Below are positions 2,882-12,934 of a stretch of 53,616 nucleotides of DNA, piece by piece. The position numbers were made by a program, and so were the translations under genes. The notes below the pieces were generated by a model. That model did no database searches and had not been told where the DNA came from. It saw only the letters and a program-made list of their open reading frames with translations. Position 1 is the first letter of the stretch. Each line of letters opens with the position of its first letter. This stretch comes from an uncultured Lachnospiraceae bacterium (GTDB lineage Bacteria > Bacillota > Clostridia > Lachnospirales > Lachnospiraceae): assembly GCA_902779395.1 (NCBI GenBank), contig CACZBK010000023.1, forward strand, positions 1 through 53,616. Reading direction: 5' to 3'.

Positions 2882-2947
2882 AAATTTATTCTCCATCCAT
2901 AAGACAAGTGGTGGACCACGCGCCTTATTTATTTACTTGCAGCACAC

Positions 2948-3108
2948 GGATTGCTCCGCATCTTCGATGCTCCCGCAATCCTACAACCATTCGCAATCCG
3001 CTGAAATGCTTGTTTTCACAAACATTTCGCTGCTTGCTCATGTTTGTACGGGTTCCAAGCTCATGAGCCGATCCATGCAAGCATGATCGTCTCATGAGTT
3101 TTGAACCC
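2948..3108. repeat. Cluster of nested inverted repeats in an intra-operon spacer
   Basis: The spacer between the E1 and JAMM genes contains three hairpins. First, GGATTGC at 2948 pairs with GCAATCC ending at 2981, with an inner GCATC/GATGC stem. Second, TGTTT/AAACA lies near 3010-3023. Third, a long stem runs from GGGTTC (3050-3055) to GAACCC (3103-3108), enclosing two CTCATGAG copies and CGATC/GATCG. Another GCAATCCG lies at about 2992. The third hairpin abuts the E1 stop codon. It looks like a mobile-type intergenic repeat or mRNA-processing element. No ORF is convincing here. Confidence 0.65.
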
Positions 3109-3917
3109 TAGTGCTTCATGTCGCACGCTACCTGCTCGTAGTCGATGAGCTCGGTGATGGTGGGTTCATCGGAGCATACTGCGCAGCCCTTGCCACGGGG
3201 CGGCAGCTTGATCTTGTGGAATTCCATCTTAAGTGCATCGTAGGTGAGCAGATATCCAACCAGCAGCTCGCCTGTTCCGGTGATATACTTAACAGCCTCC
3301 ATTGCCTGGAGGGATCCGATCACACCGCCCATAGCGCCGATGACTCCGGCCTGCTTACAGGTAGGTACGGCATCCTTCGGGGGCGGATTCTTGAAGATAC
3401 AGCGATAGCAGGGACCTTCCCCGGGGATTATCGTTGTAAGCTGTCCTTTGAATCTGATTATTCCTGCATGACTTAAAGGTTTCTTTGCCATTACGCAGGC
3501 ATCATTGATCAGAAACTTTGCAGGGAAGTTATCGGTTCCGTCAAGAATAAAATCATAATCCTTGATAAGATCCATGATATTAGATGCGCTTACAAAGTCA
3601 TAGTAAGTGTTCACCGTAACATCCGGATTGATGGCGCGCATTGTCTCTGCCGCAGATTCTACTTTTTTCTTTCCGATATCATTTGTGGTATGTATGACCT
3701 GTCTCTGCAGATTTGAGAGATCAACTACATCCGCATCTGCGATACCGATAGTACCTACACCTGCTGCAGCCAGATAAAGTGCTGCAGGAGCTCCCAGTCC
3801 GCCGGCACCTATGATGAGCACCTTTGCGTTAAGGAGTTTTTTCTGGCCCTTTGCGCCTATCTCCTTAAGTATTATATGTCTGGAATATCTTTCCAGCTGT
3901 TCATTGGTAAAAGCCAT
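3108..3917 (-). CDS. ThiF/MoeB/HesA-type E1 adenylyltransferase, HcyF-like
   Basis: 269 residues. A Rossmann ATP-binding loop G-A-G-G-L-G lies at about 37-42 after the R-Y-S-R-H motif. The D-N-L-Q-R-Q-type segment (DLSNLQRQ) follows, with zinc-binding C-Y-R-C and C-A-V-C pairs, and V-P-T-C-K corresponds to the ThiF catalytic-Cys region. It should adenylate the C-terminal glycine of a ubiquitin-like sulfur carrier and let sulfide or persulfide replace AMP to give a thiocarboxylate. Its start overlaps the carrier gene stop by one base (TAATG), and its ribosome binding site is inside the carrier coding end, so the pair is translationally coupled. MoeB, ThiF and HcyF cannot be told apart by sequence alone; the context favours HcyF. 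Confidence 0.88.
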   Translation of the reverse strand: MAFTNEQLERYSRHIILKEIGAKGQKKLLNAKVLIIGAGGLGAPAALYLAAAGVGTIGIADADVVDLSNLQRQVIHTTNDIGKKKVESAAETMRAINPDVTVNTYYDFVSASNIMDLIKDYDFILDGTDNFPAKFLINDACVMAKKPLSHAGIIRFKGQLTTIIPGEGPCYRCIFKNPPPKDAVPTCKQAGVIGAMGGVIGSLQAMEAVKYITGTGELLVGYLLTYDALKMEFHKIKLPPRGKGCAVCSDEPTITELIDYEQVACDMKH

Positions 3918-4195
3918 TATCTGCCTCCTCCTATCATAAGAGATTGCCCCCTCATTTCATTCGTGGACATTTCATCGAAACCCTGCATGATGGCTCCTCC
4001 TCCCATGAAATATAAGAACTCTACCTCATCGCCTTCTTTTAATACGGTTGATTCGAAAGTACCGGACTCCAGAAACTCCTCATTGATGGAAACCGTTACA
4101 TACTGCGGTGTTTCAACCTTTTCCTGCTCGATAAGCGCAGCGACAGTAAGTCCGTCTGCCACTTCCTTCTTTTCTCCTGCTACTGTGATCTTCAT
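3917..4195 (-). CDS. ThiS/MoaD-like sulfur carrier with a C-terminal extension (HcyS-like)
   Basis: 92 residues. Residues 1-67 match the ThiS beta-grasp fold and end in E-F-L-Y-F-M-G-G-G, where ThiS normally terminates in Gly-Gly. Here 25 more residues follow, ending M-I-G-G-G-R. The chain must be cut after the first glycines to expose a usable C-terminus, which fits the two JAMM genes in the operon. The last codons double as the AGGAGG site of the next gene, which may explain the second Gly run. The arrangement matches the Wolinella HcyS/HcyF/HcyD thiocarboxylate route that feeds MetY. AAAGGAG precedes the ATG. Confidence 0.83.
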   Translation of the reverse strand: MKITVAGEKKEVADGLTVAALIEQEKVETPQYVTVSINEEFLESGTFESTVLKEGDEVEFLYFMGGGAIMQGFDEMSTNEMRGQSLMIGGGR

Positions 4196-4213
4196 TTATT
4201 TGCTCCTTTCTTT

Positions 4214-5173
4214 TTAAATAACGTAGTACCACTCTTCCGACTGACCTACTTCTTCGGTATGCCGGTTCGTGCCATTAGACCTGTATTCCATTTCCAGATT
4301 CTTCATGCTGACTATGGTGTTTGCATCTATAGATCTGGTTATAAATGTATTGCCGCCTATAACAGTGTTTTCTCCTATTACCGTATCTCCACCCAATATG
4401 GATGCTCCGGCATAGATCGTTACATTGTCACAGATGGTAGGGTGTCTCTTCTTTCCTGAAAGCTTCTGTCCTCCTCTTGTAGATAGTGCTCCCAGGGTAA
4501 CACCCTGATATATCTTTACATTCTTTCCTATCACCGTGGTCTCGCCTATTACGATACCTGTTCCGTGATCGATAAAGAAATATTTGTCTATCTCAGCTCC
4601 CGGATGTATATCAATACCTGTTTCTGAATGTGCATATTCTGTCATCAGTCTGGGAAGCACAGGTATCATAAGCTTATATAATTCATGTGCTATCCTGTAT
4701 ACTGTGATAGCCACCAGCCCCGGGTAAGCCAGTATTATCTCCTCCAGACATCCTGCAGCAGGATCTCCGTCATATGCCGCCAGCAGATCTGATTCTATAT
4801 ACTCCCTGACAAGCGGTATCCTCTTAAAGAATTCCTTACATATACGGTAACTCTCTTCCTCCCGATCCTTTGCAGTCATCGTTCCTCTTTTGGTACAGAA
4901 ATCCAGAGCGAGGGTTACCTGTTTGTTCAGGTGATAAAATATATCTTCAACAGTTACCGCAAAAGTGTTCTTCGGATTATAGATCTTTACGGATCTGTCT
5001 CTGTAATACCCCGGGTAAATAACACGAAACAGATCATTAACAAGATCTCTTACTTCTCCTTTATCCGGCTTGTTATAGATACTTACTGCATCTATATTCT
5101 TTTTTCCGTCAAGATCCGCGTACAGATCCCTGACGATACCGTCTATCTCATCCTCTTTGATGATGTTTCCCAT
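4214..5173 (-). CDS. Serine O-acetyltransferase (CysE/EpsC type)
   Basis: 319 residues from ATG 5173 (GGGAGG 10 bases upstream; an earlier in-frame start lacks a site). A helical N-terminal half of about 185 residues precedes a left-handed beta-helix of hexapeptide repeats, with D-I-H-P-G-A, D-H-G-T-G-I-V-I-G-E and Y-Q-G-V-T-L-G-A, the active-site core of serine acetyltransferases. It makes O-acetylserine from serine and acetyl-CoA. The protein ends W-Y-Y-V-I. A C-terminal Ile is what inserts into the CysK active site in the cysteine synthase complex. Serine acetyltransferases recur beside family 2A encapsulins. A 69-base spacer with a perfect hairpin separates it from the desulfurase. Confidence 0.92.
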   Translation of the reverse strand: MGNIIKEDEIDGIVRDLYADLDGKKNIDAVSIYNKPDKGEVRDLVNDLFRVIYPGYYRDRSVKIYNPKNTFAVTVEDIFYHLNKQVTLALDFCTKRGTMTAKDREEESYRICKEFFKRIPLVREYIESDLLAAYDGDPAAGCLEEIILAYPGLVAITVYRIAHELYKLMIPVLPRLMTEYAHSETGIDIHPGAEIDKYFFIDHGTGIVIGETTVIGKNVKIYQGVTLGALSTRGGQKLSGKKRHPTICDNVTIYAGASILGGDTVIGENTVIGGNTFITRSIDANTIVSMKNLEMEYRSNGTNRHTEEVGQSEEWYYVI

Positions 5174-5205
5174 TATTCTTTTTCCTCCCGTTACGCGGAC
5201 CATTC

Positions 5206-5232
5206 TGCCGGAAGGGCTTTACCCTTCCGGCA
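5206..5232 (-). other. Intra-operon RNA hairpin between desulfurase and SAT genes
   Basis: TGCCGGAAGGG and CCCTTCCGGCA form a perfect 11-bp stem with a 5-base loop, starting 10 bases after the desulfurase stop. No U-run follows on the minus-strand transcript, so it is not a standard terminator. It could stabilise the upstream message or mark a processing site. Confidence 0.6.
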
Positions 5233-5242
5233 TTGGCCTTGC

Positions 5243-6955
5243 TTATGCAAATGTCTTTAATACCTTAACCATCGCGTCGATATCATCGGGTGAATTATAA
5301 AGTGCAAGTGTAGGTCTGACAGAGCCTTCATAGCCGAAATGCCTGAGCACAGGCTGTGCACAGTGATGGCCAGTACGTACGGCGATACCGTATGCATCCA
5401 GTCTCTTACCTACTTCATCATCAGCATATCCGTCCAGTTTAAAGGACAGTACAGATGCTTTATTAAGTGCCGTACCTATGAGATGAAGTCCCTTAACGGT
5501 CTTCATCTCCTTCATTGCATACTGCAGCAGCTCGTGCTCCCAGCGGTATACACAGGGCATGCCTATCTCTGAAAGATATGTAAGTGCTGCTCCCAGTCCT
5601 ACAGCATCAGCTATGCTTCCCGTACCTGCTTCGAATTTATTAGGTATGGGATTATATATTGTACGTTCAAAGGTTACATCAGCGATCATATTTCCGCCGC
5701 CGTGGTAAGGCTTTGCCGCCTCCAGCAGTTCCTTCTTTCCGTACACCACACCTATGCCTGTAGGCGCAAACACTTTGTGTCCGGAGAATACAAAGAAGTC
5801 GGCATCAAGCGCTGATACATTTACCGGTATATGCGCAACAGACTGTGCGCCGTCTATCAGTATGCGTACTCCGTGTCTGTGTGCGATGGCTATCAGCTCC
5901 TCAATGGGAGTAACAGTGCCAAGCACGTTGGATACATGCGTAACCGACACAAACTTTGTCCTCTTTGTAAAAAGCTTCTCATATTCATGCAGCAAAAGCT
6001 GTCCGCTCTCATCACAGGGGATGACCTTTATGATAGCTCCCGTTTCCTGGGCAACCAGCTGCCAGGGCACGATGTTTGCATGATGCTCTAATATGGATAC
6101 GATTATCTCGTCTCCGGGCTGAAGCTGAGGCTTAACATAGGCATTTGCAACCAGGTTGATAGCTTCTGTCGTGCCTCTTACAAAAACGATCTCCTCTGAC
6201 GAAGGTGCACCGATAAAATCTCTTACTATATCTCTTGCGCCTTCATACGCATCGGTACTTCTGGCCGCAAGAGTATGTGCTCCTCTGTGTACATTTGAGT
6301 TCTCGTGTTCATAATAGTATTTGATCCTGTCGATAACAGCCTGCGGGCGCTGCGTTGTAGCTCCGTTATCAAGCCATACCAGCTTGTTTCCGTTCACCTT
6401 TTCATTAAGGATGGGGAAATCGCTGCGTATCTGCGCCAGATTCTTCGATCCTATACGGATCGATTCATCCCTGGTGGTATAGGGCTTATCATCAGCCGCA
6501 GCTCCGGGAGTGCTGTCACCGCCCAGCGATGTGGGTGCATCGATCTTTCTGCCATTCTCCTGCGCCTCTGTCTGCGACATAACAACAGGCGCATAACCTC
6601 TGCTGCTTGAATTATCTACTGCAGGTACATCCGCATTTGCTGCCGAAAATCCTGCTTCGGGAGCAGCGGCTTCTTCCACAGTCTTAAAATACGGATCCGT
6701 TGTATCCCCGCCATATGCAAAGGGATGCTCCCAGTCAAATTCCGGTTCATTTATACCGGGCATGCTGCTTCCGATATTCTGGCTTCCATATCCCTGAAGG
6801 GGATCAGCTGCGTTTACCTCAGGCACTGCGGGTACGGAAGCTCCTTCCGGAGTAAAACCGTATACATTTTCAGTCAGATCGGGAAACCATGCATTAGCCA
6901 GCGCATCAAGCTCTGCTGCAGAGGGAACTCCTGCCAACTGCTCAATCGTAGTCAT
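5243..6955 (-). CDS. Cysteine desulfurase (SufS type) with long cargo-type N-terminal extension
   Basis: 570 residues from ATG 6955. The first ~175 residues are low-complexity, rich in Ala, Pro, Gly, Ser and acidic residues, and predicted disordered. From about residue 178 a full SufS-like fold follows: PLP lysine in F-S-G-H-K, catalytic Cys in R-T-G-H-H-C-A-Q-P. It removes sulfur from cysteine as an enzyme persulfide, giving alanine. Ordinary SufS is about 405 residues. A disordered extension of this sort next to a family 2A shell gene is the known signature of the encapsulated cysteine desulfurase, where the extension directs loading. The start overlaps the shell gene end by 14 bases (GGTGAG upstream of the ATG; a GTG three codons earlier is the alternative), which should keep shell and cargo synthesis linked. 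Confidence 0.93.
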   Translation of the reverse strand: MTTIEQLAGVPSAAELDALANAWFPDLTENVYGFTPEGASVPAVPEVNAADPLQGYGSQNIGSSMPGINEPEFDWEHPFAYGGDTTDPYFKTVEEAAAPEAGFSAANADVPAVDNSSSRGYAPVVMSQTEAQENGRKIDAPTSLGGDSTPGAAADDKPYTTRDESIRIGSKNLAQIRSDFPILNEKVNGNKLVWLDNGATTQRPQAVIDRIKYYYEHENSNVHRGAHTLAARSTDAYEGARDIVRDFIGAPSSEEIVFVRGTTEAINLVANAYVKPQLQPGDEIIVSILEHHANIVPWQLVAQETGAIIKVIPCDESGQLLLHEYEKLFTKRTKFVSVTHVSNVLGTVTPIEELIAIAHRHGVRILIDGAQSVAHIPVNVSALDADFFVFSGHKVFAPTGIGVVYGKKELLEAAKPYHGGGNMIADVTFERTIYNPIPNKFEAGTGSIADAVGLGAALTYLSEIGMPCVYRWEHELLQYAMKEMKTVKGLHLIGTALNKASVLSFKLDGYADDEVGKRLDAYGIAVRTGHHCAQPVLRHFGYEGSVRPTLALYNSPDDIDAMVKVLKTFA

Positions 6956-7898
6956 AATACTCACCTACCTCTACATCCTCAAGAACTGCAATAGCGTCAT
7001 CTGCAAGAATAGCTGCCGAGCAGTATAAAGATAAAAGATAAGATGCTACTCCCTTATCGTCGATACCTCTGAATCTTACTGAAAGGCCTCTTGAATGTTC
7101 ATTCTTAAGACCTGCCTGGAACAGACCTATAACACCTCTCTTTGCCTCACCGGTACGGATAAGCAGGATATTGGTCTTACCGTTCTGGGACTTGGGATTC
7201 TTAAGTCCGTCTACTAAAAGCTTATCGGTGGGAACGATAGGGATACCTCTCCAGGTAAGGAAATTTCCGCCTGCGATATTTACAACTACAGGGGGAACGC
7301 CTCTCTTTGTGCACTCTCTTTCAAATGCAGCTATTGCGCGGGGATGTGCCAGGAAGAATGAGGGCTCTTTCCAGACCTTAGTGATCAGCTCATCCAGATC
7401 ATCAGGGGTAGGTGCACCGTTTCTGGTCTGGATCCTCTGTGAATCTGCTACGTTCTTTAAAAGACCGTAATCATCATTATTGATAAGCTGGCTCTCCTGA
7501 CGCTCTCTTAAGGATTCTATAGCCAGTCCGAGCTGCTCCTGAACCTGATCGTAAGGAGCGCTGTATACATCTTCAATAGCGGTGTTTACGTTGATGATGG
7601 TTGAGATGTTGTTTAATACATACTCACGGGGCTCGGTCTCGTACTGAACGAAACCGTCAGGTATAATATCGCTCTTCTTTGTCTGGCTGCAGAGTACATC
7701 AAGGGGAGTCTCACCCTCTACTACCTTGTTTACTCTGAACAGACCTGTTTCAAGTCCCTTAAACTCAAGAAATTTAGTAAGCCACTTGGGAGTCAGTGCC
7801 CCGTACTGGGGTTTTGTCTTTGTGACATTGGCCAGATTATAGGCCGCCTTTGCGCCTAATGCATTGATGCCTTCTGTCTTTTCTACATCTTTTGCCAT
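6942..7898 (-). CDS. Family 2A encapsulin shell protein (SrpI-like)
   Basis: 318 residues, about the length of family 2A shells and without the inserted cyclic-nucleotide domain of family 2B. Features I recognise are the N-terminal arm leading to G-A-L-T-P-K-W-L, a central E-L-I-T-K-V-W-K-E-P-S-F-F-L-A-H-P-R segment, and a C-terminal stretch with S-V-R-F-R-G-I-D-D-K-G-V-A-S-Y. These proteins have the HK97 fold and assemble icosahedral shells. The best-studied partner is the desulfurase encoded immediately downstream, and related systems store elemental sulfur. AGGAGG lies 7 bases before the ATG. Identification is by recognition of the family pattern and by context. Confidence 0.92.
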   Translation of the reverse strand: MAKDVEKTEGINALGAKAAYNLANVTKTKPQYGALTPKWLTKFLEFKGLETGLFRVNKVVEGETPLDVLCSQTKKSDIIPDGFVQYETEPREYVLNNISTIINVNTAIEDVYSAPYDQVQEQLGLAIESLRERQESQLINNDDYGLLKNVADSQRIQTRNGAPTPDDLDELITKVWKEPSFFLAHPRAIAAFERECTKRGVPPVVVNIAGGNFLTWRGIPIVPTDKLLVDGLKNPKSQNGKTNILLIRTGEAKRGVIGLFQAGLKNEHSRGLSVRFRGIDDKGVASYLLSLYCSAAILADDAIAVLEDVEVGEYYDYD

Positions 7899-7955
7899 TT
7901 TAGATTCCTCCTGGAAAATGTATTTATAAAGCCGCTATGACTTTATTTACTGTGA

Positions 7956-9416
7956 TTACAGCCATGCTCCTTCGTGCGAGAACATGATGTCCTTCATGGC
8001 ATCTATACCGCCCTTTAAGTTGAACATAGGGCCCTTGTATCCTGCTTCTCTCAGAGTATTGATAGCCAGTATGCTCCTCATACCCTGTTTGCATATAAAG
8101 ATCGTATCCTGTTCGGGATCGAGCTCGTTCATCCTTCTTGCAAGCTGTCCTATAGGTATCACTATCGCATTCGGGAATCTCTGTATAGCTCTCTCGTGAG
8201 GCTCGCGTACATCCACGATAGTCATCGGATCTTCGTTCTCTATCCTCTTTGCCAGCTCTTCGGGCGTGAAGCCTTCGATAGGTATCTCCTCCTCAGGCTG
8301 CTTTAAGCCGCAGAAATCTTCGTAATCGAAATCCTGCACTCCCTTGATGGAAGGATGAGCTCCGCAAAGCGGACATTCCTTTTCTTTCTCAAGTTCCAGT
8401 ATCTTAAATCGCAGATACAGGCTGTCCACACTCAGTATCTTTCCTGAAAGGTGATCGCCTATGCCTATTATCAGCTTTAATGCTTCATTGGCCTGTATGC
8501 TTCCTATTATCCCGGGAAGCGGGCTGATGGCTCCGCCTTCCGCACAGGTAGGCACCAGTCCTGCCGGAGGAGGCGCGGGAAATGCGCATCTGTAACAGGG
8601 TCCGCCGTTAAGATTAAATATCGTGACCTGGCCCTCGAACTGATATATAGCACCGAATACCACGGGTATATCACAGAGATATGCCGCATCATTGATAAGA
8701 TATCTGGCTTTGTAATTATCGGTGCAGTCGATCACGATATCATAACCGTCTATGATATCTACGATATTCTCGGTCTCGAGCTTTGTATTTTCAGCTTCGA
8801 AATTAATATTCCTGTTAATGTTTCTTACTATATCTTTTGCGGATGCCACCTTGGGTCTGTTAAGATCCCTTGTGGTGTGGATCACCTGGGATTGAAGGTT
8901 TTCAAGTGAGACCTCGTCAAAATCCACCACCTTTATGGTTCCCACACCTGCTGCTGCCAGATACTGTATAACCGCGGATCCCAAAGCACCCGCTCCCGCG
9001 ATCACCACTCTGGCAGCTTTGATGCGCTTCTGTCCTTTAACTCCTATATCGCGGAGCATCAGATGTCTTCCGAAACGCTCTATCTCTTTATCATCAAAAG
9101 CTACCGCCTTTCTTCTTTCTTCGGGAATGATACTGTCATTCTCCGGAGCACCGCCGGCTATTGCCGGAAGCAGTAACACCTCGGAATCCTCAGACAGTGA
9201 TGTTTTCCATTTATCCTCCGATGATCTGTTCTCATCACCTACATATATGCGGATAAAGCTTCTGAGCTTTCCGTTTTCATCAAATAAAACTTTTTCCGAT
9301 TCGGGATATTCGTCTTTAATCCAGCTTAGGATATCATTTATGCTTGAAGCCTTTGTTTCCAGTCTTGCGTTTTTACCAAAGAAGTTTCGCAATGTTGCCG
9401 ATATATAAACGTTCAA
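7956..9416 (-). CDS. Fusion: MoaD/ThiS-like domain + E1 adenylyltransferase + rhodanese
   Basis: 486 residues in three parts. Residues 1-89 are a MoaD-like beta-grasp domain ending in A-I-A-G-G-A, so its Gly-Gly (88-89) is internal. Residues ~108-355 are a ThiF/MoeB-type E1 with G-A-G-A-L-G, zinc pairs C-Y-R-C and C-P-L-C, and V-P-T-C-A-E. Residues ~375-486 are a rhodanese with active-site loop C-K-Q-G-M-R-S. E1-rhodanese fusions (MOCS3/MoeBR) are known; adding the carrier in front is less usual. Unless the carrier is cut after Gly89 (the JAMM gene directly upstream is a candidate protease), it cannot be adenylated normally. The start is TTG at 9416 with GGGAGG 8 bases upstream. The rhodanese could receive sulfur from the desulfurase. 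Confidence 0.9.
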   Translation of the reverse strand: MNVYISATLRNFFGKNARLETKASSINDILSWIKDEYPESEKVLFDENGKLRSFIRIYVGDENRSSEDKWKTSLSEDSEVLLLPAIAGGAPENDSIIPEERRKAVAFDDKEIERFGRHLMLRDIGVKGQKRIKAARVVIAGAGALGSAVIQYLAAAGVGTIKVVDFDEVSLENLQSQVIHTTRDLNRPKVASAKDIVRNINRNINFEAENTKLETENIVDIIDGYDIVIDCTDNYKARYLINDAAYLCDIPVVFGAIYQFEGQVTIFNLNGGPCYRCAFPAPPPAGLVPTCAEGGAISPLPGIIGSIQANEALKLIIGIGDHLSGKILSVDSLYLRFKILELEKEKECPLCGAHPSIKGVQDFDYEDFCGLKQPEEEIPIEGFTPEELAKRIENEDPMTIVDVREPHERAIQRFPNAIVIPIGQLARRMNELDPEQDTIFICKQGMRSILAINTLREAGYKGPMFNLKGGIDAMKDIMFSHEGAWL

Positions 9417-9419
9417 TTT

Positions 9420-9845
9420 TCATACCTCCCATATCGATACCCCGTATACTTTTCCGTCGGGTTCGTCCTTCATATAACCTTTGATCTCTCCTATACCATA
9501 CCTGCCGGTTGAAACCACCACATAAAGCATTCCGGGTATCATATACTGTTTATCTTCCTTAGAGAGGACCGCAGCTTTGTCCGGATGCGAATGATAAAAT
9601 CCGGCAACTGACATTCCCCTGCTTTCAGCTTCGATCTCAAGCCTGTATAATGTGATCGGATCGATCATATAATGCGCTGTTTTTCTGTCATCCTCTGCGG
9701 AATTATCTATGCTGTTGATATCCTCTACTATTCCGCTCTGTTTATTCCCCAGCAGTATCCCGCAGCCTTCATACGGATAAGCATTTTTCAGCTGTAACAT
9801 AATGGCTGCATATGTTCTTTTACTGATGCTTACCGTATCTGTCAT
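9420..9845 (-). CDS. Second JAMM/Mov34 metalloprotease
   Basis: 141 residues. The zinc site is intact: Glu in Y-P-Y-E-G-C-G-I-L-L-G and H-S-H-P followed by S-K-E-D. I chose ATG 9845 because GGAGG sits 6 bases before it; the GTG two codons earlier overlaps that site. The gene lies between metY (two bases apart) and the carrier-E1-rhodanese fusion (three bases apart). The likely job is trimming or deconjugating a ubiquitin-like sulfur carrier, most plausibly the one fused to the next gene. It differs clearly in sequence from the JAMM protein at 2444, so the two may serve different carriers. Confidence 0.83.
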   Translation of the reverse strand: MTDTVSISKRTYAAIMLQLKNAYPYEGCGILLGNKQSGIVEDINSIDNSAEDDRKTAHYMIDPITLYRLEIEAESRGMSVAGFYHSHPDKAAVLSKEDKQYMIPGMLYVVVSTGRYGIGEIKGYMKDEPDGKVYGVSIWEV

Positions 9846-9847
9846 AC

Positions 9848-11095
9848 TCACCCTCCTGTATCCGAATTCTCTATTGCCTCTGTAAAATCTTTTATCAGAT
9901 CTTCGGCATCCTCTATGCCCACGCTCACGCGTACTGTATCTTCATATACTCCCGCCGCTTCTCTTTCCTCGATACCGGTATGTATATACAGTGTTGAAGC
10001 GGGATGTATCACCAGTGTTCTCAGATCTCCTATATTGCTGGCTATCAGCGCATACTTAAGTGAATTAATTATTCTGAAGGCCTTCTCTTTCGACCCTGCC
10101 CTGAATGTAAGTATGCCGCCGGCGTAACCGTTAAGCTCTTTATTAACATATGCATGATAAGGATGATCACTGAGACCTAAATAATTGACATCTATACCTT
10201 TGGTAAGATCAAGAGCTTTTGCAAGCTTTAGCGCATTATCGCAGATCTTTTCCATCCGCAGTCCCAATGTATCCAGTCCGATATAGCTTAAGAACGCATT
10301 CGCCGGAGCCATACAGCCTCCGAGATTCTCCCACAGATCGGTGCGCAATCTTAACAGAAAGGCCATTTTTCCATACTTTTTAAATTCCGAAAGAGCACTG
10401 TGTTTTTCAAAATCCCAGTTAAACTTTCCCCCGTATACGATCATTCCGCCGATTGCATTTCCGCCTCCGTTTATATACTTAGAGGTGGAATGCACTACGA
10501 TATCAGCCCCCATTGATAAAGGTCTGGCAAGATAAGGAGTAGCTGTCGTGGAATCTACGATCAAAGGTATACCGGCACTATGCGCAGCCTCGGACGCTCC
10601 TGCAACATCCATCACGGTAAGTGATGGATTGCTTATGAGTTCCCCGAATACTGCCCTTGTCTTTTCATTAACAAGCTTTTCAACATTCTCACGGTTTATT
10701 ACATCAGCAAATACCGTATGTATCCCCAGCTTTTCAAGATCATGAAAAAGATTTATACTGCCGCCGTATAATCCTCTTCCGGCTATGATCTCGTCTCCGC
10801 TTTCACATAAAGCAAGCAGAGCGCAGGTTATCGCTGACATACCACTGCTGCAACAGACAGCGCCCGCACCGCCTTCCAGCTCATTTATCCTCTGTTCAAA
10901 AGCCGTAAGCGTCGGATTTCCTATGCGAGTATATGCATATCCCATACTCTTATGCGCAAAGACTTTTTCAAGCTCCTCCATGCTTTCATAAGAAAAAGCA
11001 GTAACCTGTGAGACCGGGGGCAGGATCTCTCTCTGGGAGTATCCTGTCGAAGTCTTTCCATGAAGCAGACCTGTATTAAATCCTGAATATTCCAT
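9848..11095 (-). CDS. metY: O-acetylhomoserine sulfhydrylase-like Cys/Met metabolism PLP enzyme
   Basis: 415 residues of the Cys/Met metabolism PLP family. The PLP lysine is in H-S-T-S-K-Y-I-N-G-G-G (about 208). The late segment N-I-G-D-L-R-T-L-V-I-H-P-A-S-T is typical of the longer MetY branch rather than MetB/MetC. The expected reaction is O-acetylhomoserine plus sulfide, or a protein thiocarboxylate as in Wolinella, to homocysteine. It follows rrf2 by 14 bases with GAGGAG upstream. Cystathionine gamma-lyase activity cannot be excluded from sequence. Confidence 0.85.
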   Translation of the reverse strand: MEYSGFNTGLLHGKTSTGYSQREILPPVSQVTAFSYESMEELEKVFAHKSMGYAYTRIGNPTLTAFEQRINELEGGAGAVCCSSGMSAITCALLALCESGDEIIAGRGLYGGSINLFHDLEKLGIHTVFADVINRENVEKLVNEKTRAVFGELISNPSLTVMDVAGASEAAHSAGIPLIVDSTTATPYLARPLSMGADIVVHSTSKYINGGGNAIGGMIVYGGKFNWDFEKHSALSEFKKYGKMAFLLRLRTDLWENLGGCMAPANAFLSYIGLDTLGLRMEKICDNALKLAKALDLTKGIDVNYLGLSDHPYHAYVNKELNGYAGGILTFRAGSKEKAFRIINSLKYALIASNIGDLRTLVIHPASTLYIHTGIEEREAAGVYEDTVRVSVGIEDAEDLIKDFTEAIENSDTGG

Positions 11096-11109
11096 CTTCC
11101 CAAAACTCC

Positions 11110-11550
11110 TCAGATAACATAATTATCCCAGCCACCGGCAAATCTGTTCCGGCATTGTCCGGCAAAATCGCTCAGTTTCATTTCGCCGGTATATTGATTC
11201 AGATTTTTATTGATCTCTTTCCAGAAACAGTTCTTGATGATCGACCTAAGTCCGTCATTTCTGTTATCGTCATCCATGTCTGCCAGAATGGTATTATCAA
11301 GGGCATTCAGTACCTCTCTCATGCTGATCTTATCTGCAGGCTTTGCCAGAGCATATCCTCCTCTTATGCCTTTCTGCGCTATGATAAAACCGGCCTGGCG
11401 CAAAAGCAGCAGGATCTGCTCCAGGTACTTATGTGATATGTTTTCCCTCTGTGCTATATCCGGTGCTGAAACAGCAGAACCGTTCTCTCCATATAACACA
11501 ATATCAGTCAGAGCGATCAGTCCGTATTCAACTCTTGTAGATACTCTCAT
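11110..11550 (-). CDS. Rrf2-family regulator, CymR-like
   Basis: 146 residues. An N-terminal winged helix (M-R-V-S-T-R-V-E-Y-G-L, then I-S-H-K-Y-L-E-Q-I and G-x-R-G-G-Y) is typical of Rrf2 proteins. The three-Cys cluster of IscR is absent; only two scattered Cys occur in the C-terminal third. That fits CymR, which senses cysteine status through a complex with CysK rather than an Fe-S cluster. The C-terminus is W-D-N-Y-V-I, a terminal Ile like that of the serine acetyltransferase here. First gene of the long sulfur operon, behind a promoter whose -35 is covered by an inverted repeat also found before cysK, so autorepression is likely. GGAGAGGAG precedes the ATG. Confidence 0.9.
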   Translation of the reverse strand: MRVSTRVEYGLIALTDIVLYGENGSAVSAPDIAQRENISHKYLEQILLLLRQAGFIIAQKGIRGGYALAKPADKISMREVLNALDNTILADMDDDNRNDGLRSIIKNCFWKEINKNLNQYTGEMKLSDFAGQCRNRFAGGWDNYVI

Positions 11551-11580
11551 TTGTACTCCTCTCCCGGATTTAACTAATCA

Positions 11581-11614
11581 TATATAACACAACTTACCTA
11601 CTATGTCTATAGGT
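11581..11614 (-). promoter_or_regulatory. rrf2 operon promoter with Rrf2-type operator
   Basis: On the minus strand, -35 TAGACA (11604-11609) and -10 TATATA (11581-11586) are 17 bases apart. The inverted repeat ACCTA...TAGGT spans 11596-11614 and covers the -35. It differs from the cysK-promoter repeat at a single position over 19 bases. Binding by the Rrf2 protein is inferred. Confidence 0.72.
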
Positions 11615-11685: not shown

Positions 11686-12618
11686 TCACTCTGTAAACAG
11701 AGCCGTTGAATAATATCTGTCGCCGCTGTCAGGAAGAAGCGCAACGATGACCTTGCCTTCATTCTCGGGCTTCTTAGCGTATTCTATAGCAGCAAAGAGT
11801 GCTGCGCCGGAGGAAATACCTACAGAAATTCCTTCCTTCCTTGCCAGAAGCTTTGCTGTAGCAAAAGCGTCTTCGTTTGCTGCCTTGAAGATCTCATCAT
11901 AAACCTTGGTATTCAGAACATCGGGCACAAAACCTGCACCGATACCCTGGATCTTATGCGCACCTGCCTTGCCTTCGGATAATACCGGTGAATCTGCGGG
12001 CTCAAGCGCAACTACCTTCACATCAGGATTCTGCTCTTTTAAATACTCACCTGTTCCGGTAACCGTTCCGCCTGTACCTACGCCTGCGATAAATATATCG
12101 ACCTTTCCGTCGGTATCCTTCCAGATCTCGGGACCTGTAGTAGCTTTATGTACAGCAGGGTTAGCGGGATTTACAAACTGTCCGGGGATGAAGGAATCAG
12201 GGATCTCCTTTGCAAGCTCCTCAGCCTTTGCGATAGCTCCCTTCATACCTTTTGCACCTTCCGTCAGGACTATCTCTGCCCCGTATGCCTTAAGGATACT
12301 GCGTCTTTCAACACTCATGGTCTCGGGCATTGTAAGGATTATCCTGTATCCCTTTGCAGCGGCGATCGCTGCCAGACCTATACCTGTATTACCTGATGTA
12401 GGCTCTATGATAACAGAACCTTCCTTTAATATGCCCTTCTGCTCAGCGTCCTCTATCATGGCCTTAGCGATCCTGTCCTTAACGCTTCCGGCCGGATTGA
12501 AATACTCAAGCTTTACCAGTACTGTAGCTTTAAGCCCCAGCTCCTTCTCTATATTGGTAACTTCTACCAGAGGTGTGTTTCCTACGAGACCCAAGGTTCC
12601 TTTAAAAATGTTTGACAT
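11686..12618 (-). CDS. cysK: Cysteine synthase (O-acetylserine sulfhydrylase)
   Basis: 310 residues, the normal CysK length. The PLP lysine lies in G-S-V-K-D-R, the substrate loop in T-S-G-N-T-G, and the phosphate-binding loop in [12 protein letters not shown]. It converts O-acetylserine and sulfide to cysteine. ATG 12618 was chosen over an in-frame codon five residues earlier because GGAGGG is 7 bases upstream of it. It has its own promoter and a long leader with a Cys-codon peptide and a terminator. CysK probably has two protein partners here, serine acetyltransferase and the Rrf2 regulator, since both end in Y-V-I. Confidence 0.95.
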
Positions 12619-12671: not shown

Positions 12672-12708
12672 AACAAAAAAATAACCGGGGCTTTCTCCGG
12701 CTCCCGGG
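12672..12708 (-). terminator. Leader terminator (attenuator) upstream of cysK
   Basis: On the minus strand, CCGGG (12707-12703) pairs with CCCGG (12689-12685), extended by G-C/C-G pairs after a bulged A, and is followed by TTATTTTTTTG. It lies 54 bases before the cysK start and 21 bases after the leader-peptide stop. The 3' arm GCCCCGGT (12691-12684) is also perfectly complementary to ACCGGGGC (12779-12772) inside the leader ORF, giving an 8-bp antiterminator. Structures were found by eye. Confidence 0.78.
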
Positions 12709-12728
12709 CTGCTGGTAAAAGATCGGTA

Positions 12729-12857
12729 TCAACATCGCGATCTGGCGGAGCGGTTGAATACAAGCTCAAGCGCCCCGGTCGTATTACCGGCCCGGGATAA
12801 TTGCATTCGACAACAACACATCATCATGTTATTATTTTTATGCTTTGTACTAAACAT
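12729..12857 (-). CDS. cysK leader peptide with consecutive Met and Cys codons
   Basis: A 42-codon frame starts at ATG 12855-12857 with AGGAG 6 bases upstream and stops at TGA 12729-12731. Codons 8-16 read N-N-N-M-M-M-C-C-C (AAT AAT AAC, three ATG, three TGT). The rest is basic and small, and the last sense codon is again TGT. It begins about 38 bases after the predicted transcription start. Such a run of sulfur amino-acid codons ahead of a terminator is the signature of a ribosome-mediated attenuator that senses charged tRNA-Cys and possibly tRNA-Met. No T-box sequence is present. Confidence 0.8.
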   Translation of the reverse strand: MFSTKHKNNNMMMCCCRMQLSRAGNTTGALELVFNRSARSRC

Positions 12858-12900
12858 CCTGCTCTCCTTTTATGATCCTGATACTTCAATGGATGTCTGC

Positions 12901-12934
12901 ATCATAGCATAATTTACCTACTATGTCAATAGGT
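12901..12934 (-). promoter_or_regulatory. cysK promoter with Rrf2-type operator
   Basis: On the minus strand, -35 TTGACA (12924-12929) and -10 TATGAT (12901-12906) are separated by exactly 17 bases. The inverted repeat ACCTA...TAGGT (12916-12934) overlaps the -35. It is nearly identical to the one at the rrf2 promoter, which supports one repressor controlling both. Confidence 0.8.

Follow-up and report, generated by a model that had tools for sequence, protein, structure and literature searches.

Leader reading frame and terminator upstream of cysK

The region directly upstream of cysK in an uncultured bacterium of the Lachnospiraceae raises the question of how transcription of this gene is controlled, as a short open reading frame (ORF) with its own ribosome binding site sits between the promoter and the structural gene and is followed by a terminator. 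A preliminary description of the window (the whole stretch of DNA analysed, 53,616 nucleotides) had read this arrangement as a leader-peptide attenuator that senses cysteine or methionine. The 42-codon frame, ribosome binding site, promoter and NNNMMMCCC run on which that reading was built were all confirmed, and the terminator ahead of cysK, a hairpin followed by a U run, was recovered both by a scan and by folding. The locus is composed of the following features:

12917-12933, minus strand: CCTATTGACATAGTAGG, an inverted-repeat-like box overlapping the -35 element, probable operator of an Rrf2-family regulator
12929-12901, minus strand: sigma-70 type promoter, -35 TTGACA and -10 TATGAT with a 17-nt spacer (scan)
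12864-12869, minus strand: ribosome binding site AAGGAG, 6 nt ahead of the ATG (read from the sequence)
12857 (ATG) to 12729 (TGA), minus strand: leader peptide ORF, 42 codons (ORF list; related leaders)
12836-12828, minus strand: Asn run NNN (translation)
12810-12827, minus strand: control codons ATG ATG ATG TGT TGT TGT (Met3 Cys3), conserved in position
12804-12809, minus strand: conserved CGA ATG hexamer directly after the Cys run
12790-12797, minus strand: segment A, UCCCGGGC, codons S-R-A, predicted 5' strand of the antiterminator (covariation, folding)
12785-12788, minus strand: GGUA, second antiterminator helix, pairs with 12717-12714 (fold)
12746-12777, minus strand: hairpin within the antiterminator loop (fold)
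12714-12717, minus strand: UACC, 3' strand of the second antiterminator helix (fold)
12702-12709, minus strand: segment C, GCCCGGGA, common to the predicted antiterminator and the terminator (covariation, folding)
12675-12707, minus strand: intrinsic terminator CCGGG.GC / GCCCCGG, then UUAUUUUUUU (scan and folding)
11686-12618, minus strand: cysK, cysteine synthase A (TIGR01139, 457 bits, cut-off 351)
11110-11550, minus strand: Rrf2-family regulator gene adjoining cysK (PF02082)

The promoter is near-consensus, with 11 of 12 consensus bases and a TG preceding the -10 element. The leader frame encodes a 42-amino-acid product, MFSTKHKNNNMMMCCCRMQLSRAGNTTGALELVFNRSARSRC, in which the Met codons occupy positions 12827-12819 and the Cys codons positions 12818-12810. 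The leader folds better than its shuffled versions (z = -2.29; 4 of 200 shuffles were as good). In the window, the Asn run can also pair with the Cys run to form a 10-bp stem; this hairpin is not conserved, as a stem of at least 8 bp was found in 14 of 85 leaders versus 16.9 expected from codon shuffles. The frame ends R-C-stop (CGA TGT TGA, 12737-12729), and many of the relatives' leaders have the same ending.

A T-box or another known riboswitch might drive the terminator, with the reading frame being incidental, and T-boxes do regulate cysK in some clostridia, according to the accessible part of one study (PMC2940859). At our locus, such a switch seems scarcely credible: no Rfam 15 family reached its gathering score over the leader or in nine loci with the element, nothing plausible was matched in the leader at E values up to 10, and the T-box model RF00230 was not matched there. 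Three T-box matches are present in the window genome (L193, L194 and L195, one of them over the cut-off), which are located before pheS, trpE and thrS; the trpE call is truncated and just below the cut-off, and none of these matches lies ahead of a cysteine gene.

A sulfur cluster lies downstream of cysK on the minus strand (3108-11613). Its members include the Rrf2 gene, a MetY-like PLP enzyme, a JAB peptidase, a ThiS-ThiF-rhodanese fusion and a MoeB/ThiF-like ORF, as well as a family 2A encapsulin shell (encap_f2a, 488 bits), an encapsulin-cargo-type cysteine desulfurase (784 bits, cut-off 800) and a serine acetyltransferase-like ORF (162 bits, cut-off 211). A Clostridiales-1 RNA (RF01699, 127.5 bits) was found at 2938-3118 on the minus strand.

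Relatives of the leader, their target genes and the promoter box

Public genomes were scanned for CysK, and the best 80 loci, mostly Lachnospiraceae and other clostridia by record title, were kept. A short ORF of the type MCCCLMQSSRARCMAGVLS is present within 600 nt upstream in 4 of these best 80 loci, and weaker Cys runs are seen in a few more. The M-C-C-C-x-M pattern ATGTGYTGYTGYNNNATG occurs at 63 places in 59 of 397 family genomes versus 5 for the reversed pattern; the window and 12 other places were kept as leaders, while the remainder mostly fall within longer frames or do not show the layout (L097, L112 and L157 are possible leaders outside the kept set). The common layout starts with a promoter containing CCTATTGACATAGTAGG and a short ORF, in which TGT TGT TGT CGA ATG is followed by two codons, TCCCGGGCA (S-R-A) and AUGGCC, and ends, further on, with GCCCGGGAG and the terminator.

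A covariance model, R1, was built from an alignment of 40 leaders (A1). It matched, in the forward sense and at E ≤ 0.001, 22 of the best 80 CysK loci, with 21 above 70 bits and 19 of the 22 being training loci. In the family, R1 gave 69 matches, 14 of them training sequences, in 53 of 397 genomes. The class search yielded matches in 16 of 391 genomes; 11 of these lie outside the family, spread over four families, and score at least 69 bits. The search of related genomes that the preliminary description had suggested bears it out in this respect: Cys-run leaders recur before cysK and metY. Among genus mates, a leader directly before cysK was not seen. Of 20 stretches upstream of their cysK genes, 9 have the leader before metY of a metY-cysK operon and 11 have none, so that the arrangement in the window is one variant. 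The window genome itself contains a second copy of the leader, on contig C40 (G000:C40:7574-7726), before a gene for an SBP_bac_3-NlpA fusion.

Target genes were assigned by similarity to 16 reference proteins for 118 matches, reduced to 114 by setting aside two antisense echoes (L201, L270), a repeat (L171) and a weak second match (L272). The first recognised gene within 1.9 kb was MetY in 47 cases (the reference is named by TIGR01326, 630 bits, cut-off 495), SBP3-NlpA or parts of it in 16, a cystathionine-type enzyme in 14, CysK in 9 (two of them doubtful: L264, a fragment, and L249, which is distant), NlpA/MetQ in 8, an amino-acid permease in 5 and a GST-like protein in 4; seven others were found once each, four matches had none, and in a few of the 114 cases the gene is more than 500 nt away. 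By sequence comparison, one conserved element precedes mostly sulfur genes in related bacteria of the gut and rumen.

Two further groups of leaders were noticed. L252, L254 and L263 (from G066, G372 and G004) have a single Cys codon within a conserved peptide, LLR(Q/E)NFRCGRM, score weakly with the model (27-43 bits) and precede metY or a nitrogenase-like (PF00148) gene. In L124, L126 and L127, a further Cys leader (..QCCCSN.FRAG..RERC) is located downstream of cysK, followed in L124 by a gene for a cystathionine-type enzyme.

The box CCTATTGACATAGTAGG points to a probable second layer of control. Full copies were found upstream of 55 of 93 element matches and partial copies upstream of 11, with none at the remaining 27; four genus mates have a box of this type directly before cysK without a leader. 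In the window, a copy with one mismatch lies upstream of the Rrf2 gene (11597-11613), whose product scores 68 bits with the CymR model, below the cut-off of 195. Another one-mismatch copy is present on contig C18 of the window genome, and one with two mismatches upstream of the second leader on C40. With two mismatches allowed, the pattern gave 6 matches in the window genome versus 25 for the reversed control, and only the best copies are therefore meaningful. Transcription from this promoter is probably also controlled by an Rrf2-type repressor, which would bind to CCTATTGACATAGTAGG.

Competing helices, control codons and the modelled position of the ribosome

In the 40 leaders of A1, the helix between segments A and C, together with its flanking pairs, is paired in 96.8% of cells, and both sides have changed in 6 of the 10 pairs of A:C, for example UCCCAGGCA with UGCCUGGGA and UCCCGGACA with UGUCCGGGA. 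Helix 2, for which AUGGC:GCCAU is used in many relatives, is paired in 75.4% of cells and helix 3, the hairpin matching 12746-12777, in 75.5%. Taken together, the three helices contain 53 double-change cells versus 18.7 in shuffled alignments, and none of 500 shuffles was as high. The terminator helix, C:E, is paired in 90.4% of cells in the same 40 leaders.

A1 was assembled by hand, with near-identical loci (L164, L173, L174, L126, L127) and coding-looking matches dropped. As most of its rows beyond 18 were found by scripts demanding A:C complementarity, we repeated the count on those 18 (A2), which had been named by their peptide before the pairing was known and alone avoid this requirement. 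In A2, A:C is paired in 91.1% of cells, and there are 6 double-change cells versus 1.7 after shuffling, with 1 of 500 shuffles as high, a count that is lowered by the misalignment of rows L096, L107 and L109 by a few bases; for pair types there is no significant excess (202 of 500 shuffles were as high). A2 represents 18 of 20 loci named beforehand: L024 has no row, and L143 was dropped after its missing layout was noticed, which slightly favours the result. Two of the CysK loci, L070 and L083, are outside the leader sets.

Covariation and folding thus indicate that the conserved antiterminator consists of segment A paired with segment C, on the 5' side of the terminator, and that this structure and the intrinsic terminator are mutually exclusive. 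In the window fold, a short residual CCGG:CCGG hairpin remains able to form ahead of the U run alongside A:C, and antitermination in the window may therefore be incomplete. A different antiterminator had been proposed in the preliminary description, in which ACCGGGGC (12779-12772) in the leader frame pairs with GCCCCGGT (12691-12684) in the 3' arm of the terminator. The two are indeed exactly complementary over 8 nt in this window, and their pairing would also break the residual CCGG:CCGG hairpin. But this complementarity, on whose conservation the proposal had been staked, is not conserved in the 40 leaders and shows no covariation excess (70.1% of cells paired versus a shuffled mean of 69.9%; 5 double-change cells versus 8.8), and the stalled-state fold uses A:C instead, which makes the pairing of ACCGGGGC with GCCCCGGT a very unlikely antiterminator.

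The same alignment bears on whether the ORF might encode a small functional protein, with the RNA folds being incidental. The frame with its ribosome binding site is found in many species and its peptide is rich in Cys. Against this, the residues conserved past the Cys run (S-R-A and M-A-G/R) are encoded by the codons that make up the pairing segments, the distance from segment A to the stop codon varies from 24 to 78 nt across leaders, and the window peptide matches no NCBIfam family at E values up to 1; we consider a protein function extremely improbable. The hexamer between the Cys run and segment A was counted in the 95 of 127 entries that could be anchored (some loci appear twice; the other 32 entries were excluded); 80 of these 95 have CGA and 91 have ATG. 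The conserved UGUCGAAUG has no clear pairing partner in 77 leaders, where the best stems averaged 5.6 upstream versus 5.3 shuffled and 6.4 downstream versus 5.9.

For the control codons, a second covariance model without the codon region, R2, was used. It gave 60 matches in 45 of 397 family genomes, all of them within the 69 of R1 and 13 of them training sequences. Codons were counted at 63 sites not used in training, 46 from the codon-free R2 and 17 from the class search with R1, some of which may be close relatives of training rows and five of which look wrongly anchored; L198 was discarded as an exact duplicate. Of the 63 sites, 51 have two or more Cys codons at positions -4 to -10 ahead of segment A, compared with 609 of 18,900 background windows (3.2%), and 52 have three or more Cys plus Met codons, compared with 0.9% of the background windows. 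Codons of the pathway are enriched and conserved, and conservation of the Cys codons in the relatives' leaders, on which the preliminary description had also staked its reading, is what we found.

In the window, the last Cys codon is codon -5, and its first base lies 15 nt ahead of segment A. The exact geometry of the stalled ribosome had been named as a concern in the preliminary description; this spacing, counted to the strand that stalling would free, eases the concern. Our folding scan assumes a ribosome footprint of 17 nt behind and 14 nt from the A site forward, and this footprint decides where the switch falls. In the window, placing the last Cys codon (-5) in the A site gives A:C a probability of 0.96, which falls to 0.75 at -4 and 0.04 at -3; two codons past the last Cys codon, the probability of C:E is 0.76. 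Over the 40 leaders, the mean probability of A:C is 0.58 at codon -5, 0.21 at -4 and 0.04 at -3, while that of C:E rises to 0.85. These are equilibrium values: A:C exceeds 0.5 in only 23 of the 40 leaders with the ribosome at -5, re-forms after the ribosome has passed codon 8-9, and has a probability of 0.94 in the window with no ribosome. Termination would therefore need timing, as A:C refolds behind the ribosome and forms without one. Codon positions and folding scan together suggest that the run of sulfur codons extends up to the point at which a stalled ribosome would barely leave the antiterminator strand uncovered.

These positions also bear on the signal. Methionine could be an equal or even the main signal under the same mechanism, with Met and Cys codons being interchangeable in a sulfur-amino-acid sensor. 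Among the 63 sites, codon -7 is Met at 39 (Cys at 15), codon -8 is Met at 26 (Cys at 8) and codon -3 is Met at 58; many targets are methionine genes (metY, MetQ/NlpA), and three Met codons lie ahead of the three Cys codons in the window. However, codons -5 and -6, the last positions that leave segment A free, are Cys at 45 and 46 sites and Met at only 5 and 11, and according to the folding scan a ribosome stalled at Met -3 would cover A. We consider such a role of methionine quite possible, if somewhat short of an even chance.

A leader-peptide attenuator with Cys and probably also Met codons upstream of cysK, as first suggested for this locus, is supported by the comparison with relatives. 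The reading frame, its codons, two exclusive covarying helices and the association with sulfur genes emerge from the sequence and this comparison, and we propose that the element is very likely a ribosome-mediated transcription attenuator that senses charged Cys-tRNA, and probably also Met-tRNA. For the stalling, its signal, the sign of regulation and the repressor, we infer the following course. RNA polymerase would start just downstream of 12901 and a ribosome would translate the leader. When Cys-tRNA (or Met-tRNA) is short, the ribosome would stall at the Met/Cys run with its front edge just before segment A, and segment A would pair with segment C, with the second short helix behind. As C held by A cannot build the terminator, cysK would be transcribed. 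Without a stall, the ribosome would cover A while the polymerase makes C and E; C would then pair with E and transcription would end at the U run. The Rrf2-type repressor would probably be superimposed at the promoter.

We further speculate, as a tentative idea that is rather unlikely to hold in full, that a sulfur regulon across the Clostridia is under one attenuator class, which reads Met and Cys codons together and in which codon position relative to segment A sets the weight of each codon. The fixed CGA-AUG would contribute a pausing or timing function, and in the one-Cys LLR(Q/E)NFRCGRM variants nascent-peptide arrest may have taken the place of tRNA sensing.

Relation to known attenuators and possible meaning for sulfur-gene control

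Ribosome-mediated attenuators of the trp/his type have a leader ORF with control codons, mutually exclusive antiterminator and terminator structures and an intrinsic terminator. The window element is like them in its leader ORF with control codons, predicted exclusive structures and intrinsic terminator. It differs in that strand A is part of the ORF and has the 5' arm of the terminator itself as its pairing partner, in its mixed Met/Cys codons and in the reuse of one element over a clostridial sulfur regulon.

Among described systems, Rli60 before ilvD in Listeria monocytogenes is, in the accessible part of the report, a ribosome-mediated attenuator for branched-chain amino acids, shown by reporters and mutations and stacked on CodY (PMC5864092). 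Rli60 and the window element are both attenuators of this kind in a Firmicute, stacked on a transcription factor (in the window, a probable one), but Rli60 responds to branched-chain amino acids, serves one operon and has another sequence. A predicted leader-peptide attenuator in a Firmicute is likewise the His leader before hisS/hisZ in bacilli, where it takes the place of a T-box (PMC2965389, as far as its available text goes); the amino acid and the genes are others. The Cys T-box upstream of cysK in C. perfringens senses tRNA charging via a terminator (PMC2940859, accessible part). There, the tRNA is bound by the RNA without translation, whereas the window element has a leader ORF and no T-box match.

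Cys codons themselves have been described in two settings. uORFC-8-2 upstream of cysS in Rhodobacterales has a short ORF with tandem Cys codons and, behind it, an intrinsic terminator, and sensing of Cys-tRNA has been proposed (PMC8632094). As described in the part available, it is confined to Alphaproteobacteria and cysS, with its Cys codons in the first stem. The window element stands apart from that description, as it precedes cysK and its Cys codons lie outside, before the conserved helices; its targets are sulfur biosynthesis and transport genes in Clostridia. In mycobacteria and other actinobacteria, poly-Cys leader ORFs precede cys operons, with the Cys codons near the stop and, by the accessible text, no conserved terminator hairpin (PMC1262725, 2005). 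The mycobacterial leader is leaderless according to the title of Canestrari 2020 as cited, and a 2026 text, available in part, speaks of translation attenuation (PMC13236596). These leaders share with the window element the runs of Cys codons before sulfur genes, but the latter has a ribosome binding site (12869-12864) and a terminator (12707-12675). A clostridial sulfur version of a leader attenuator was not found in the literature searched, where absence is weak evidence as most subscription papers were outside its scope.

Described controls of sulfur genes in Firmicutes include T-boxes, S-boxes, CymR and LysR-type regulators. According to a 2010 study, several clostridia lack a T-box upstream of cysK, and there may be other mechanisms (PMC2940859). 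The element described here is a concrete and testable candidate for sulfur-gene control in gut and rumen Clostridia. It could enter Rfam, and many short ORFs would then be re-annotated. The natural series of Met/Cys codon arrangements would allow the relation between codon position and attenuation to be tested. If our model is true, leader-peptide attenuation would serve a whole amino-acid regulon, in a group for which we found no such case described.
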